Source of the DNA: Stenotrophomonas rhizophila | Lineage (GTDB): Bacteria > Pseudomonadota > Gammaproteobacteria > Xanthomonadales > Xanthomonadaceae | Assembly: GCF_000661955.1 (NCBI RefSeq) | Contig: NZ_CP007597.1 | Location: 2,396,964-2,460,963 of the forward strand | Length of the DNA: 64,000 bases | Reading direction: 5' to 3' | Part shown: in pieces, positions 23,880 to 34,033 of the stretch | Position numbering within the stretch: position 1 is the stretch's first letter | Layout: every line of letters begins with the position of its first letter | Position numbers and translations under genes: made by a program | The notes under the pieces: generated by a model | Seen by the model: the letters and a program-made list of their open reading frames with translations, nothing else | What the model was told of the DNA's origin: nothing | Database searches by the model: none

Positions 23880-25712
23880 ATGTCAGGGAAGAATGTGTTT
23901 GAAGGTCCGCGCTGGCAGCGCGATCTTGTTCGTTTCCTTCCCTTGAAGAGCCAGTTCGTGCTCTCCGGGAACATCCGCGACCTGCAGGCAGCCGAAGTGG
24001 CGCCGGGCACGGTAACCGCGCAGAGCTTCAACCAGACCCTGTGCAACACCCTGCTCGATCAAGGCTACGCGCAGGTGCTGGGCTGGGACCCGTTGGCCGG
24101 TTTCCGCGCCCTGGAACGCCCCGGCACCGATCCCGCCAGCGGCATCGCCCTGCTGCAATCGCTGGGACTGACCCCAGTGGACGGGGCCGCGCCTGCCGGT
24201 ATCGACCTGCTCAGTGCCACGCTCCAACGGTTGGTCGTCCGCCAGGGCGAGCCGGTGGCATTGATCATCGATTTCGCCTCGCGCCTGGCAGTGCGCAGCG
24301 ATGCCCTCAGCGCGGCCGAACACCAGCTGTTCACCCAGGCCCTGGTGCTCTCCCACCAGGCACGCAGCCGACCGGGCGGCGTGCAGCGCAAGCCGTTCTT
24401 CAACACGGTGCTCTGGGTGGTGGAGAAGGAAGGTGACCTGCCCGACTGGCTGCTGGTCGGCAACCCGCGCATCCGCCACGTTCCGGTGGCCAAGCCGGAC
24501 CAGCTCACCCGGCGCGCACTGGCCCCGGCCCTGCTCAAGGGACTGGCCGGTGCCCAGGACGCCAGCGCCGAGGCTACCGCGCAGGCGGTGGACGCCTTCG
24601 TGCAGAGCACCGAGGGGCTGCTGTTGCTGGACCTCAGTGCCATCGCCCAGCTGGCCCGGGTCGAAGGCGTGGCGGTGGACCAGATCGGCGACGCCGTGCG
24701 CCGCTACAAGGTCGGCGTCACCGAAGACCCGTGGCTGCGCATCGACCGGCAGCGCATCCGCCTGGGCGATGCGTTCGTCCACCAGCGGGTCAAGGGCCAG
24801 CACCATGCGGTGACCCACATGCTGGACATCGTCAAGCGCGCCATGACCGGCGTGGGTGCAAGCCGCAAGGGCAACCGGCCGCGCGGCGTGGCATTCCTGG
24901 CCGGCCCGACCGGCGTGGGCAAGACCGAGCTGGCCAAAACCGTCACCAGCCTGCTGTTCGGCGACGAAAGCGCCTACATCCGGTTCGACATGTCCGAGTT
25001 CAGCGCCGAGCATGCCGACCAGCGGCTGATCGGCGCCCCGCCCGGCTACGTCGGCTACGACGTGGGCGGCGAACTGACCAACGCCATCCGCGAGAAACCG
25101 TTCAGCGTGGTCCTGTTCGATGAGATCGAGAAGGCCCATCCGCGCATCCTCGACAAGTTCCTGCAGATCCTCGACGACGGCGTGCTCACGTCCGGGCGTG
25201 GCGACCGCGTGTATTTCTCCGAAGCGCTGATCGTGTTCACCTCCAACCTGGGCATCTACCGCCAGGGCGAGCATGGCGAGCGCGTAGCGAACGTGTTGCC
25301 CGGCGAGCCCTTCGAGCAGGTGCAGAGCAAGGTGCACGACGAAATCGACCGGCACTTCAAGCTGGTCCTGAACCGGCCGGAGATCCTCAACCGGATCGGC
25401 GAGAACATCATCGTGTTCGATTTCATCCGCGAGGAGGTCGCCGTGCAGATCTTCGACCAGATGGTCGACGCAACCCTGGCCGACCTGCAGGCCCAGCAGT
25501 TGCACGTGACCCTGGCCGCGTCGGCCCGCGATGCGTTGCGGTCGCTCTGCCTGAAGGACCTGTCCAACGGCGGGCGCGGCATCCGCAACCAGCTCGAGGC
25601 GCACCTGCTCAACCCGCTGGCGCGTGCCCTGTTCGACCAGGACGCGCAGCCCGGCCAGCAGTTCACCATCGTTGCGGTGGACGCCAACGTCCTCGACCTG
25701 GCGCGCGGTTGA
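23880..25712 (+). CDS. ClpB-type AAA+ ATPase with degenerate first module
   Basis: 610-residue protein. The C-terminal half is a complete Clp/Hsp100 second-type AAA+ domain: Walker A GPTGVGKTELAK near 342, pore-loop region GAPPGYVGYDVGG, Walker B VVLFDEIEKAHP (Asp414/Glu415), sensor-1 FTSN, arginine-finger segment RPEILNRIGENI and sensor-2 GGRGIRNQLE. The N-terminal 320 residues lack a Walker A motif; VALIIDF may be the remnant of a Walker B strand, so this looks like an inactive AAA module or partner platform. The ATG at 23880 (AGG 7 bases upstream) is preferred to 23859, which has no ribosome site. Protein remodelling or unfolding is expected; the substrate is unknown. Confidence 0.88.
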   Translation: MSGKNVFEGPRWQRDLVRFLPLKSQFVLSGNIRDLQAAEVAPGTVTAQSFNQTLCNTLLDQGYAQVLGWDPLAGFRALERPGTDPASGIALLQSLGLTPVDGAAPAGIDLLSATLQRLVVRQGEPVALIIDFASRLAVRSDALSAAEHQLFTQALVLSHQARSRPGGVQRKPFFNTVLWVVEKEGDLPDWLLVGNPRIRHVPVAKPDQLTRRALAPALLKGLAGAQDASAEATAQAVDAFVQSTEGLLLLDLSAIAQLARVEGVAVDQIGDAVRRYKVGVTEDPWLRIDRQRIRLGDAFVHQRVKGQHHAVTHMLDIVKRAMTGVGASRKGNRPRGVAFLAGPTGVGKTELAKTVTSLLFGDESAYIRFDMSEFSAEHADQRLIGAPPGYVGYDVGGELTNAIREKPFSVVLFDEIEKAHPRILDKFLQILDDGVLTSGRGDRVYFSEALIVFTSNLGIYRQGEHGERVANVLPGEPFEQVQSKVHDEIDRHFKLVLNRPEILNRIGENIIVFDFIREEVAVQIFDQMVDATLADLQAQQLHVTLAASARDALRSLCLKDLSNGGRGIRNQLEAHLLNPLARALFDQDAQPGQQFTIVAVDANVLDLARG

Positions 25713-26368
25713 ACCGTCCACTGCAGTTGTCACGCGTGCATTTCCCGGTGACCACGCTGGGGCCGGGGCAGCGCCTGGGCATCTGGTTCCAGGGCTGCAG
25801 CATCCGCTGCAGCGGCTGCATTTCGGCCGACACCTGGGGGCCGGGGCGCACGGTCGTCGACGTGGCCACGCTGCTCGAGCAGGTGGCGCCGTGGCTGCAC
25901 CAAGCCGACGGCATCACGATTTCCGGCGGCGAGCCGTTCGACCAGTTCGATGCGCTGCTGCAGATGCTGGTGGGGCTGCGCCAACGCACCGCCGCGGACA
26001 TCCTGGTGTACAGCGGGCACCCGCTGGAAACGCTGCAGCCCATGCTCGACCAGGCGCGCGACCTGATCGACGCGGTGATCAGCGACCCCTACCTTGAACA
26101 TGCAGCCCAGTCGCTGGCGCTGCGTGGCAGCGACAACCAACGCCTCACCCTGCTCACCGCGCTCGGTCGGTCGCGCCTGGCCGGCCTGGCGCGCACCAGC
26201 ACGCCGGCCGACAAGGCACTTGACCTGATGTTCGACGCCACCGGCACCGTCTGGATGGCCGGCATCCCCCGCCGCGGCGACCTGCTGCGCCTGCGCGAGC
26301 TGCTGCGCGCGCAGGGCCACCAGGTGCAGACCAGCGCACACACTTCATCGCGTCGTCCAGCCGAGTAA
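25709..26368 (+). CDS. Radical-SAM activase-like protein (NrdG type)
   Basis: 219-residue protein with the radical-SAM cluster motif CSIRCSGC (CX3CX2C), the spacing of NrdG and PflA activating enzymes, preceded by GIWFQGC and followed by the SAM-binding ISGGEPF. Such enzymes make a 5'-deoxyadenosyl radical, classically to activate a glycyl-radical enzyme. No glycyl-radical enzyme or RVxGY-type motif is found in the operon, so the target must differ. The TTG start overlaps the upstream stop (TTGA), implying translational coupling with the AAA+ protein. Confidence 0.88.
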   Translation: MNRPLQLSRVHFPVTTLGPGQRLGIWFQGCSIRCSGCISADTWGPGRTVVDVATLLEQVAPWLHQADGITISGGEPFDQFDALLQMLVGLRQRTAADILVYSGHPLETLQPMLDQARDLIDAVISDPYLEHAAQSLALRGSDNQRLTLLTALGRSRLAGLARTSTPADKALDLMFDATGTVWMAGIPRRGDLLRLRELLRAQGHQVQTSAHTSSRRPAE

Positions 26369-32675: not shown

Positions 32676-34033
32676 GTGGTCCCAAAGTCGTCCGCATCGT
32701 GACTGCCGAAGAACTGCTGGCCCTGCGTGAAGCGATGCTGCACCGGCTGGACCAGGCGGTGGCGCGCTGGCAGGCCCAGTGTGAGCGCGTGGGCGAGAGC
32801 GACGCATCGGCGGTGGCCGCGGTAATGGCACGCCGCCAGGCGCTGCAGGCGCTGTTGGCGGACAGCGACAACACGCGGTATGCGCTGCTGATCGAGGCCG
32901 AAACGGCCTTCCTGCAGGCCGACACCCGCGACCGCGAGGCGCGCGCCATCGACCGCGCTGCCGCAGGCCGCCAGCAGCAGCGGCGGCTGCGCGACAACGC
33001 CGCCGCCGTGCTCAACACCCTGCAGGACCGATCCGTTGATGCAGACGCCGGCCTGCTGCAGTCGCTGCAGGCACTGGCCGACGGTCACCCCGGTACTGAC
33101 GCGGAGGCGGTGCTGGCCCGTGCCTTCGCGCTCCTGTCGCCGCCGGACGCGCAGGCAACGCTGAGTGATGACCAGCGCGCGTTGGCCGCCGCATTGCAGA
33201 CCGCCACGCCCACCCCCACGCTGGCCGACTGGGCCGCCCGGCAGCCCGCCGACCCCGAGCGCGAGGCGCGCCTGCTGCGCGTGGACCGCCATATCGCCGA
33301 ACTGCAGTTGCTGCAGGGCGCGGCAGTCGCTGCACCCTACCTGGAGGCGCTGCACAAGGCCGAGCAGGAAACCGCCCCGCAACGGCGCAACCTTCTGCTG
33401 GACAGCCTGGTACTGGACCTGGCCGCCGCCTCGGCCGCGTTCGCCCAGCGCCGCACGCAGCTGGAACAGCTGCAGGATGTGGCCAGCAGGCTGGCTGCCG
33501 TGGACCCTACCGAGCATGCGCCGTTGCTGACCCGGGTGGCCGCCTGCAGTACCGACACCGCGCTGCCGCTGCTGACCGAGCTCACCCTGCAGTGCGACAC
33601 CGCCCTTGCCAGCCACCAGCAGGCGCTGGCGGCAGTTTCCCGGCGCCAGGCCGTGCTCGACGGGCTGGCCAGCCTCGGCTACGAGGTGCGCGAAGGCATG
33701 GCCACCGCATGGCAGGACACTGGCGCGGTCGTTCTAAAGAAAGCTGCCACCCCTGGCTATGGCGTTGAGGTGGGCGGCCGTGCAGACGGCGGGCGCCTGC
33801 AGGTCCGGGCCGTGGCCCTGGCGACCGACCGCGACCGCGCTCGCGACCGCGACATCGAAACCCTGTGGTGCGGTGAGTTCGGCCGGCTGCAGGCGCTGCT
33901 GCACGGGCAAGGTACCGCGCTGGTGATCGAACGGGCCCTGGGCGTGGGTGAGGTGCCCTTGAAGGAGACCATCGCCACCGCGACGCAGTCCGACCAGGTG
34001 CAGGTCTCGCGCGCACGCAGCGGCCCGGCCTGA
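32672..34033 (+). CDS. Helical protein of unknown function (MSGPKVVRIV family)
   Basis: 453-residue, Ala/Leu/Gln/Arg-rich, mostly alpha-helical protein; long stretches (about 10-120 and 200-340) look coiled-coil. It begins MSGPKVVRIVTAEELLALRE. The last 120 residues become beta-rich (GAVVLKKAATPGYGVEVGGR, then GRLQVRAVAL). No enzymatic motif or membrane helix is seen. The ATG overlaps the stop of the giant helicase gene (ATGA), so the two are probably made in ratio and may work together. Its stop lies 5 bases before the flhB promoter. Function unknown. Confidence 0.8.
   Translation: MSGPKVVRIVTAEELLALREAMLHRLDQAVARWQAQCERVGESDASAVAAVMARRQALQALLADSDNTRYALLIEAETAFLQADTRDREARAIDRAAAGRQQQRRLRDNAAAVLNTLQDRSVDADAGLLQSLQALADGHPGTDAEAVLARAFALLSPPDAQATLSDDQRALAAALQTATPTPTLADWAARQPADPEREARLLRVDRHIAELQLLQGAAVAAPYLEALHKAEQETAPQRRNLLLDSLVLDLAAASAAFAQRRTQLEQLQDVASRLAAVDPTEHAPLLTRVAACSTDTALPLLTELTLQCDTALASHQQALAAVSRRQAVLDGLASLGYEVREGMATAWQDTGAVVLKKAATPGYGVEVGGRADGGRLQVRAVALATDRDRARDRDIETLWCGEFGRLQALLHGQGTALVIERALGVGEVPLKETIATATQSDQVQVSRARSGPA

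Follow-up and report, generated by a model that had tools for sequence, protein, structure and literature searches.

A 64,000-nucleotide stretch of Stenotrophomonas rhizophila DNA (contig NZ_CP007597.1, positions 2,396,964 to 2,460,963; hereafter the window, whose coordinates are used throughout) carries four co-directional open reading frames (ORFs) on the + strand that, in the window's ORF list, fill positions 23859-34033 between a gene for an MHYT-GGDEF-EAL protein and flhB. They encode an AAA+ protein (gene 1), a radical S-adenosylmethionine (SAM) protein (gene 2), a superfamily 1 (SF1) helicase-nuclease protein (gene 3) and a predicted coiled-coil protein that begins with the residues MSGPK (gene 4). 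On balance, and with real reservations, we read this operon as a horizontally moved, chromosomally inserted four-gene defense system that would target nucleic acids. We favor this reading because the gene order is fixed in 77 of 80 loci, presence is patchy, synonymous divergence differs between operon and flanks, empty sites occur, some neighbors are defense genes, half of gene 3 is related to ProA, Hhe, PDC-S37 and Mokosh proteins, the operon matches a flank of the Pseudomonas aeruginosa defense hotspot cDHS1, catalytic motifs are kept, an AAA+/radical-SAM pair recurs in other architectures and the MSGPK start is found in Proteobacterial and Bacillota proteins alike. The cassette itself is real, mobile and widely spread; it is probably a defense system, a variant of the helicase-nuclease kind whose radical-SAM/Hsp100 core is unusual.

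The four genes form a fixed, coupled cassette

Genes 1 and 2 overlap by 4 bp, as do genes 3 and 4, and a 4-bp gap separates genes 2 and 3. Because the ratio of nonsynonymous to synonymous divergence (dN/dS) lies between 0.07 and 0.26 in comparisons with two close relatives and the same gene order recurs in 77 of 80 loci, the operon is a real coding unit, beyond chance. In these two comparisons with the window, gene 4 gave values of 0.20-0.26 against 0.07-0.13 for genes 1-3, and it is the fastest evolving of the four.

Loci were collected with gene 4 as the specific probe: 132 were confirmed and the best 80 fetched. Of these 80, 77 contain gene 1, 77 gene 2 and 79 gene 3; since gene 4 selected them, they cannot on their own exclude that genes 1-3 also exist apart from it. 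All four genes were present in 77 loci, in one order and on one strand, and in 72 of them all four were of plausible full length, the other five (L034, L066, L089, L093 and L098) having a gene of implausible length. Two of the three incomplete loci are cut by contig ends (L054 and L072) and the third, L085, is a fragment. The spacing between genes 3 and 4 is exactly -4 in 69 of 79 loci. By record titles, the carriers include Alpha-, Beta- and Gammaproteobacteria, an Acidobacteria metagenome-assembled genome (MAG) and MAGs of Chlamydiae/Parachlamydiales. In another Pseudomonas genus, genes 1, 3 and 4 (gene 2 was outside that search) were all-or-none: the same 7 of 159 genomes, the defining genome counted, carried them side by side, and the remaining 152 carried none. 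The sequence-only reading of this DNA had looked to co-occurrence in distant taxa as support for a system, and both the distant four-gene loci and the Pseudomonas pattern bear it out. These results show that the four genes are a fixed, coupled cassette.

Presence of the cassette is sparse. Gene 4 was found in 8 of 91 genomes of the window's genus and in 3 of 369 genomes sampled from the class, counting the window's own genome and one partial match. In the P. aeruginosa-group genus, one genome of 25 had gene 1, namely the genome that defined the choice of genus. Close relatives of gene 1 (E limit 1e-150) were present in 8 of 72,556 plasmid records, all Rhizobium or Caballeronia replicons of at least 0.6 Mb. 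Truncated remnants with parts of genes 3 and/or 4 (L085, L103, L104 and L105) lie on plasmids and in one genome, some of them beside transposases. No confirmed relative of gene 4 was found in viral contigs, and carriage as phage cargo was rejected on this result and on the phage-record search with the type B AAA+ protein given below.

A search for flhB succeeded in 87 of 90 genus genomes, and 30 of its loci were fetched. Gene 4 precedes flhB in five of these; in 17 the EAL gene ends at most 350 bp from flhB; and in eight the gap holds other DNA, namely an EamA-like gene (five loci), a gene for a protein of 714 or 749 aa (two) or small genes (one; names assigned by eye). G465 is a sixth carrier with the operon between EAL and flhB, and gene 4 thus lies directly before flhB in six of the eight genus carriers. 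The EAL gene was seen to the left of the operon in four carriers (the window, G013, G429 and G465); G019 and G027 were viewed on the flhB side alone, and in G030 and G478 the operon is on a different contig from flhB.

Synonymous divergence (dS) differs between operon and flanks in four of five pairs. In the comparison of the window with G013, operon dS is 0.055-0.091, about three- to nine-fold lower than in part of the EAL gene (0.51), flhB (0.28) and flhA (0.34). The operon is also the closer part in the pairs with G429 (0.15-0.22, flanks 0.32-0.48) and G019 (0.16-0.25, flanks 0.29-0.38), whereas G465 carries a diverged copy at the same site (0.81-1.03, flanks 0.17-0.59); codon bias in GC-rich genomes distorts such absolute values more than the contrast within a pair. 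This is most simply explained if, in some pairs, the cassette has been exchanged later than the DNA around it, with a separate entry at the same site in G465. The operon is patchy in its distribution and reads as horizontally exchanged, its dS disagreeing with that of its flanks within pairs.

The position of the operon next to flhB might point to flagellar accessory genes, an explanation to which we give practically no weight. Before flhB the operon is missing from 25 of the 30 genus loci, including the 17 in which EAL ends within 350 bp of flhB; operon and flanks diverge differently in four of five pairs; and in other lineages the operon has nearest neighbors of many unrelated kinds. We rejected flagellar function on the empty sites and on operon divergence unlike that of the flanks. 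The sequence-only reading had named fixation in the family together with a tie to flagella as evidence against a defense role; within the genus, with gene 4 in only 8 of 91 genomes and EAL-flhB sites standing empty, neither was seen.

By Pfam, fliR and the MHYT-GGDEF-EAL gene (21666-23810, left of the operon) are upstream, and flhB (34080-35219, right of the operon) and flhA are downstream. The same earlier reading had four overlapping or nearly touching genes interrupting an otherwise standard fliR to flhB order; the gene layout holds, but the order is not otherwise standard, as the MHYT-GGDEF-EAL gene sits between fliR and the operon, also in operon-free relatives. Its start for gene 1, at 23880, is probably right, 610 aa being the length of 74 of 120 listed homologues; the mechanical ORF begins at 23859. 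The left boundary (23811..23879, no strand) has the EAL stop codon on one side and the operon start directly after it. At the right boundary, a motif CGGAAC-N5-TTGCA (34039..34054, +) precedes flhB in empty and filled sites with small changes; we take it to be a putative sigma54-like element. A search for sigma70-type promoters before gene 1 and around the gene 4/flhB junction found none, and Rfam gave no match over window positions 20000-38000.

Some further features of the site were noted. The MHYT-GGDEF-EAL gene at 21666-23810 encodes a cyclic-di-GMP protein and lies between fliR and flhB in the related genomes compared. The EAL-flhB gap in Stenotrophomonas resembles an insertion hotspot, being empty or holding the operon (in two diverged forms), the EamA-like gene, the 714-749-aa gene or small genes. 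In some empty sites (L201, L203 and L209) short palindromic repeats, recognized by eye, occupy the gap.

Domains and conserved motifs of the four proteins

Gene 1 (23880..25712, +) encodes an AAA+ protein of 610 aa, or of 617 aa from the other ATG upstream at 23859. It matches the Pfam families AAA_2 and ClpB_D2-small. The active AAA_2 domain (24879..25400, +; residues 341-514 of the 617-aa reading; Pfam E 2.6e-45) has near-invariant motifs, and the C-terminal half is ClpB-D2-like, with Walker A and B motifs and a GYVGY pore loop. Conservation among aligned homologues is at least 98% for Walker A, for the pore loop and for several arginines. AAA_2, Walker A/B and the tyrosine pore loop mark gene 1 as a ClpB-type AAA+ protein; it is not a ClpB equivalog, scoring 258 bits against a cut-off of 1232 and having a single ring with Walker A. 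No Walker A motif was found in the N-terminal half, whose profile matched AAA ATPases alone in the PDB, and these weakly (15 sequences, best E 0.0015, in the C-terminal part of the domain). Because of the absent Walker A and the weak AAA ATPase matches, this half looks like a dead first ring.

Gene 2 (25709..26368, +; TTG start) encodes an NrdG/PflA-like radical SAM protein of 219 aa with the Pfam families Fer4_12 and Radical_SAM. In motif counts, which for genes 1 to 4 omit 2, 1, 4 and 2 proteins of implausible length, all three cysteines of the CxxxCxxC cluster motif (25796..25819, +) are present in 77 of 77 sequences, and the GGEP residues (G73, G74, E75 and P76) are at least 98% conserved, placing gene 2 in the radical SAM superfamily. 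Both specific models score below their cut-offs (NrdG, 67 bits against 126; PFLA, 54 bits against 232), and PflA is the sole PDB relative at E up to 0.01. No PADLOC family matches gene 2.

Gene 3 (26373..32675, +) encodes a protein of 2,100 aa that combines zinc ribbons, a pseudokinase, DUF4011, an SF1 helicase and a restriction-endonuclease-like domain; its Pfam families are Pkinase, DUF4011, AAA_11, AAA_12 and MTES_1575. Two zinc-ribbon-like clusters (26385..26621, +; Cys 5, 8, 19 and 28, then Cys 67, His 71, Cys 80 and Cys 83) are at least 98% conserved; they are read as zinc ribbons by motif, Pfam support being weak. A degenerate kinase-like domain (Pkinase, Pfam; 26688..27419, +) and a DUF4011 segment (Pfam; 28593..28859, +) follow. 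The SF1 helicase (29226..32120, +) has AAA_11 and AAA_12 halves with a long insert between them, Walker A GPPGTGKS and motif II DEASQ, with each DEAS residue present in 75-76 of 76 gene 3 sequences; AAA_11/AAA_12, Walker A and a DEAx motif II are what characterizes COG1112-like SF1 helicases. The MTES_1575 restriction-fold nuclease (32316..32606, +) has conserved residues D2009 and E2025-C-D2027, D2009 being kept in 75 and E2025 in 74 of the 76 sequences.

Active Ser/Thr kinases carry the VAIK lysine, HRDxK and the DFG aspartate. In the 76 gene 3 sequences, the columns around the VAIK position (138-143) hold no lysine, the catalytic-loop lysine is replaced by arginine in 69 and the DFG aspartate by glycine in 72, and HRD is kept in 70; the motif set of an active Ser/Thr kinase is thus incomplete. 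Because the VAIK lysine is missing and glycine replaces the DFG aspartate in 72 of 76, this domain reads as a conserved pseudokinase. The kinase-like domain of the sequence-only reading is therefore present as a Pkinase-family domain, but its active-kinase motifs are degenerate.

Gene 4 (32672..34033, +) overlaps gene 3 at ATGA and encodes a protein of 453 aa, predicted by eye to be a coiled coil. Its N-terminus, MSGPKVVR (32672..32695, +), is found in 118 of 120 listed homologues, and the MSGPK start in 119. A conserved C-terminal domain (33629..33964, +) contains Cys400, invariant in 53 diverse sequences. No Pfam family matched gene 4 above cut-off, and no relative was found in the PDB (best E 0.17).

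Defense neighbors and related architectures

The neighbor comparison covered 142 of 151 nearest proteins from 38 genomes, after removal of eight longer than 1,000 aa and one that lay at a contig edge, and 145 control proteins taken at 38 places in 33 of these genomes. Clusters of flanking proteins recur in at most 8 of the 38. At E 1e-8, 130 PADLOC families were matched by the near proteins and 16 by the controls, as pooled proteins rather than per locus, and these family counts overstate the contrast, one methylase alone accounting for 24 families. Five of ten hand-picked neighbors match: Wadjet JetD, a type II methylase, Lamassu LmuB, Olokun OloB and PDC-S20. In a side observation, a WYL-type regulator-like gene (by eye) lies about 300 bp upstream of a Luteimonas operon (L116:8880-9698), and BLAST-similar genes lie near two other operons.

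P. aeruginosa homologues are about 82% (gene 1) and 57% (gene 4) identical to those of the window. We take the locus tags of the right flank of cDHS1 to be PA2725-PA2728, and PA2727/PA2728 to be gene 3. The operon matches the right flank as published for this hotspot (PMC10250203), where the flanking genes are used as hotspot markers (Johnson et al. 2023, PMC10250203). Two published tables record changes within clones for PA2727 and PA2728 (PMC4918941, PMC3697988), and one of them describes PA2727 as similar to a DNA helicase. A defense-gene neighborhood, as the sequence-only reading had suggested looking for, thus holds for some neighbors (five of the ten hand-picked) and for the cDHS1 flank, and is weakened by matches among the controls and by the inflated family counts.

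We call the window's operon type A. A 38%-identical AAA+ protein in one further genome led to a type B operon (L145:511-10456) encoding an SF1 helicase, a PIN-domain protein, a coiled-coil protein, an AAA+ protein and a radical SAM protein. Type B also occurs on plasmids of Polaromonas, Acinetobacter, Leisingera, Moellerella and Photobacterium (L190, L191, L192, L194 and L196); as the search that yielded types B and C ran over plasmid records and a single genome contig, their location on plasmids is partly an effect of it. The type B helicase matches MkoA with 340 bits, better than gene 3 does. The PIN, coiled-coil and radical SAM proteins of the tested types B and C match no PADLOC model, and in the Polaromonas copy the parts other than the helicase match no system-specific one. 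Among phage records, no match to the type B AAA+ protein covers 80%; the 20 listed of 59 matches run from residue 213 on, the ClpB-like part. None of 5,426 E. coli genomes holds 80% of the 3,942-base query, and the ten listed matches are clpK. Beside the type B operon of the Acinetobacter plasmid (L191:11712-13694), one unit encodes a small P-loop protein (nucleotide-kinase-like, by eye), a second radical SAM protein and a small hypothetical protein.

A type C operon on a Bacillota plasmid (Aristaeella, L193:1-15714) encodes a DUF4011 helicase, a kinase with intact VAK, HKD and DFG motifs, an MSGPK protein, a zinc-ribbon-FHA protein, a radical SAM protein, an AAA+ protein, a PP2C-like protein (weak match), a further gene and a second kinase. 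The Bacillota MSGPK protein has 776 homologues, with the MSGPK start in 102 of 120 listed. Its C-terminal domain aligns weakly with that of gene 4, the conserved cysteine in register (E 0.00097, probability 22%), which is suggestive only of a relationship. On a cyanobacterial plasmid, the AAA+ and radical SAM genes are about 9 kb apart, with a coiled coil of MSGSPK start between them. What types A to C share as a recurrent core is the AAA+/radical-SAM pair together with an SF1 helicase. A third component common to all three is likely, not proven; homology between the type B coiled coil and gene 4 was not detected by profile comparison.

Proposed mechanism, alternatives and known systems

In the mechanism we propose, gene 4, with its MSGPK start, coiled coil and invariant-Cys C-terminal domain, would act as a sensor or platform. 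The NrdG-like enzyme of gene 2 would modify a protein partner, most simply gene 4. Upon sensing of an invader, the Hsp100-like motor of gene 1, with its dead first ring, active second ring and pore loop, would thread or remodel the partner. This remodeling could release the helicase-nuclease of gene 3, with the zinc ribbons and pseudokinase as its gate, so that it loads onto the nucleic acid of the invader or of the cell and cuts it. More tentatively, and as a proposition we entertain rather than hold, the invariant core across types may lie not in the nuclease but in an Hsp100-like AAA+ protein and an NrdG-like radical SAM enzyme, to which the versions from Proteobacteria, Bacillota and cyanobacteria add the MSGPK coiled coil (as MSGSPK in the last). 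A radical-modified protein, with the invariant C-terminal cysteine as candidate site, would be unfolded or refolded by the motor and would switch on an interchangeable SF1 helicase/nuclease, with a phospho-signaling gate in the form of an active kinase, FHA, PP2C or pseudokinase.

Several observations weigh against a mobile defense system. The operon does not stand out in composition, its GC content of 0.70 being close to that of the adjoining 10 kb on each side (0.69 and 0.68), and the pair with G027 shows no dS difference between operon (0.10-0.16) and flanks (0.12-0.15). Gene 1 retains 60-62% identity in Chlamydiae MAGs, which is slow for an arms-race gene. Among the neighbors, the other five of the ten hand-picked proteins match nothing, and the control set has PADLOC matches of its own, including a defense-type reverse transcriptase. 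The type B coiled coil has no similarity to gene 4 detectable by profile comparison, and Pfam found no glycyl-radical enzyme family among the four operon proteins that could be the partner of gene 2. The hotspot study reports the flanking genes, including the one with DUF4011, from every P. aeruginosa isolate, as for a core function and unusual for a defense cassette (PMC10250203).

The last of these points bears on a different explanation, a machine for nucleic-acid or protein stress repair, in which the Hsp100 motor and the helicase-nuclease would rescue stalled nucleoprotein complexes, the radical SAM enzyme would maintain a cofactor or repair a damaged subunit, and horizontal spread would reflect a niche benefit instead of defense. 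SF1 and Hsp100 folds also serve repair and proteostasis, the AAA+ protein evolves slowly, the operon is present in Parachlamydiales MAGs, and the flanking genes are core in P. aeruginosa, as far as that account goes (PMC10250203). All-or-none patchiness (7 of 159 Pseudomonas and 8 of 91 genus genomes), truncated remnants, defense neighbors and plasmid variants make this unlikely, although it is the competitor we take most seriously. Rather improbable, too, is a weapon between elements that would chiefly exclude competing plasmids or conjugative elements instead of phages: type B is found on plasmids, some typed as conjugative and one with the antirestriction gene ardA close by, and one type A operon adjoins the JetD gene of Wadjet, a system with an anti-plasmid role, but type A is rare on plasmids (gene 1, 8 of 72,556 records at E limit 1e-150). 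Radical SAM antiviral enzymes that make modified nucleotides exist, and gene 2 might make such a viperin-like poison with the other genes as its switch; we consider this very improbable, as the closest families of gene 2 are the NrdG/PflA activases, no PADLOC family matches it and Pfam found no nucleotide-kinase family in the four proteins.

The defense reading that we prefer is also where the sequence-only proposal of a candidate defense system now stands: it is strengthened by four-part co-occurrence, patchiness, horizontal exchange and the cDHS1 flank, and has had to give way where the kinase proved a pseudokinase, gene 3 fell below the Hhe and ProA cut-offs and the genes turned out to be core in P. 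aeruginosa. In the open-access full-text literature, a scope that largely leaves out subscription papers and bioRxiv preprints, and going for most papers by title and start of the abstract, we found no account of the four genes, or of an AAA+/radical-SAM/helicase set, as a system. If the more tentative proposition on the invariant core is correct, a class of immunity would span Pseudomonadota, Bacillota and Cyanobacteriota and, by MAGs, Chlamydiota and Acidobacteriota, with a copy in every P. aeruginosa at the edge of cDHS1, and chemistry of the glycyl-radical-activase type and Hsp100 unfolding would join the known switches of prokaryotic immunity. With gene 4 directly before flhB in six of eight carriers and an empty site in close relatives, the locus offers a clean genetic design.

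Among known systems, the Hsp100 proteins ClpB, ClpA and ClpV share with gene 1 the second AAA+ ring with its pore loop and the D2-small domain; gene 1 differs in a first half with no Walker A and weak AAA likeness, and scores far below the equivalog cut-offs. NrdG/PflA activases, which act on proteins, share CxxxCxxC and GGEP with gene 2, and the type B and C partners score 91 and 110 bits with NrdG; in contrast to these activases, gene 2 has no glycyl-radical enzyme in its operon, and the gene adjoins the AAA+ gene in types A, B and C and lies 9 kb from it on the cyanobacterial plasmid. The C-terminal SF1 helicase and MTES_1575 region of gene 3 aligns with ProA (NF058533) and PDC-S37 at 513 and 485 bits, but 513 bits is well below the NCBIfam equivalog cut-off of 1500, the match begins near residue 944 and so excludes the zinc ribbons and pseudokinase, and genes 1, 2 and 4 match neither model. 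Hhe (NF042953), a single-gene system, matches the second helicase half and nuclease region of gene 3 with 311 bits, under its 2000-bit cut-off. Mokosh has a kinase with a helicase as its defining role, and a phospholipase-D-like (PLD) domain. Gene 3 resembles it in combining kinase-like and SF1 helicase domains, and its helicase matches the MkoA/MkoC models; however, its kinase is degenerate, its nuclease is MTES_1575 with no PLD family in the four proteins by Pfam, and the operon adds AAA+, radical SAM and MSGPK genes. From the Ter/TerY-P triad the operon differs in that its four proteins have no vWA-type TerY or Ter Pfam family.

In vWA-MoxR/FtsH ternary conflict systems, as outlined in the relevant part of their description, a remodeling ATPase is accompanied by a radical SAM gene proposed to modify a peptide effector (PMC7159879). 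The operon likewise pairs a remodeling ATPase with a radical SAM gene, but its proteins have no vWA, MoxR or FtsH families and their partners are a helicase-nuclease and the MSGPK coiled coil. At the right flank of cDHS1, finally, the genes serve as markers and, in the passages that concern them, are neither assayed nor proposed as a system (PMC10250203); if our proposal holds, this core gene set of P. aeruginosa, so far a hotspot marker, becomes a testable system.

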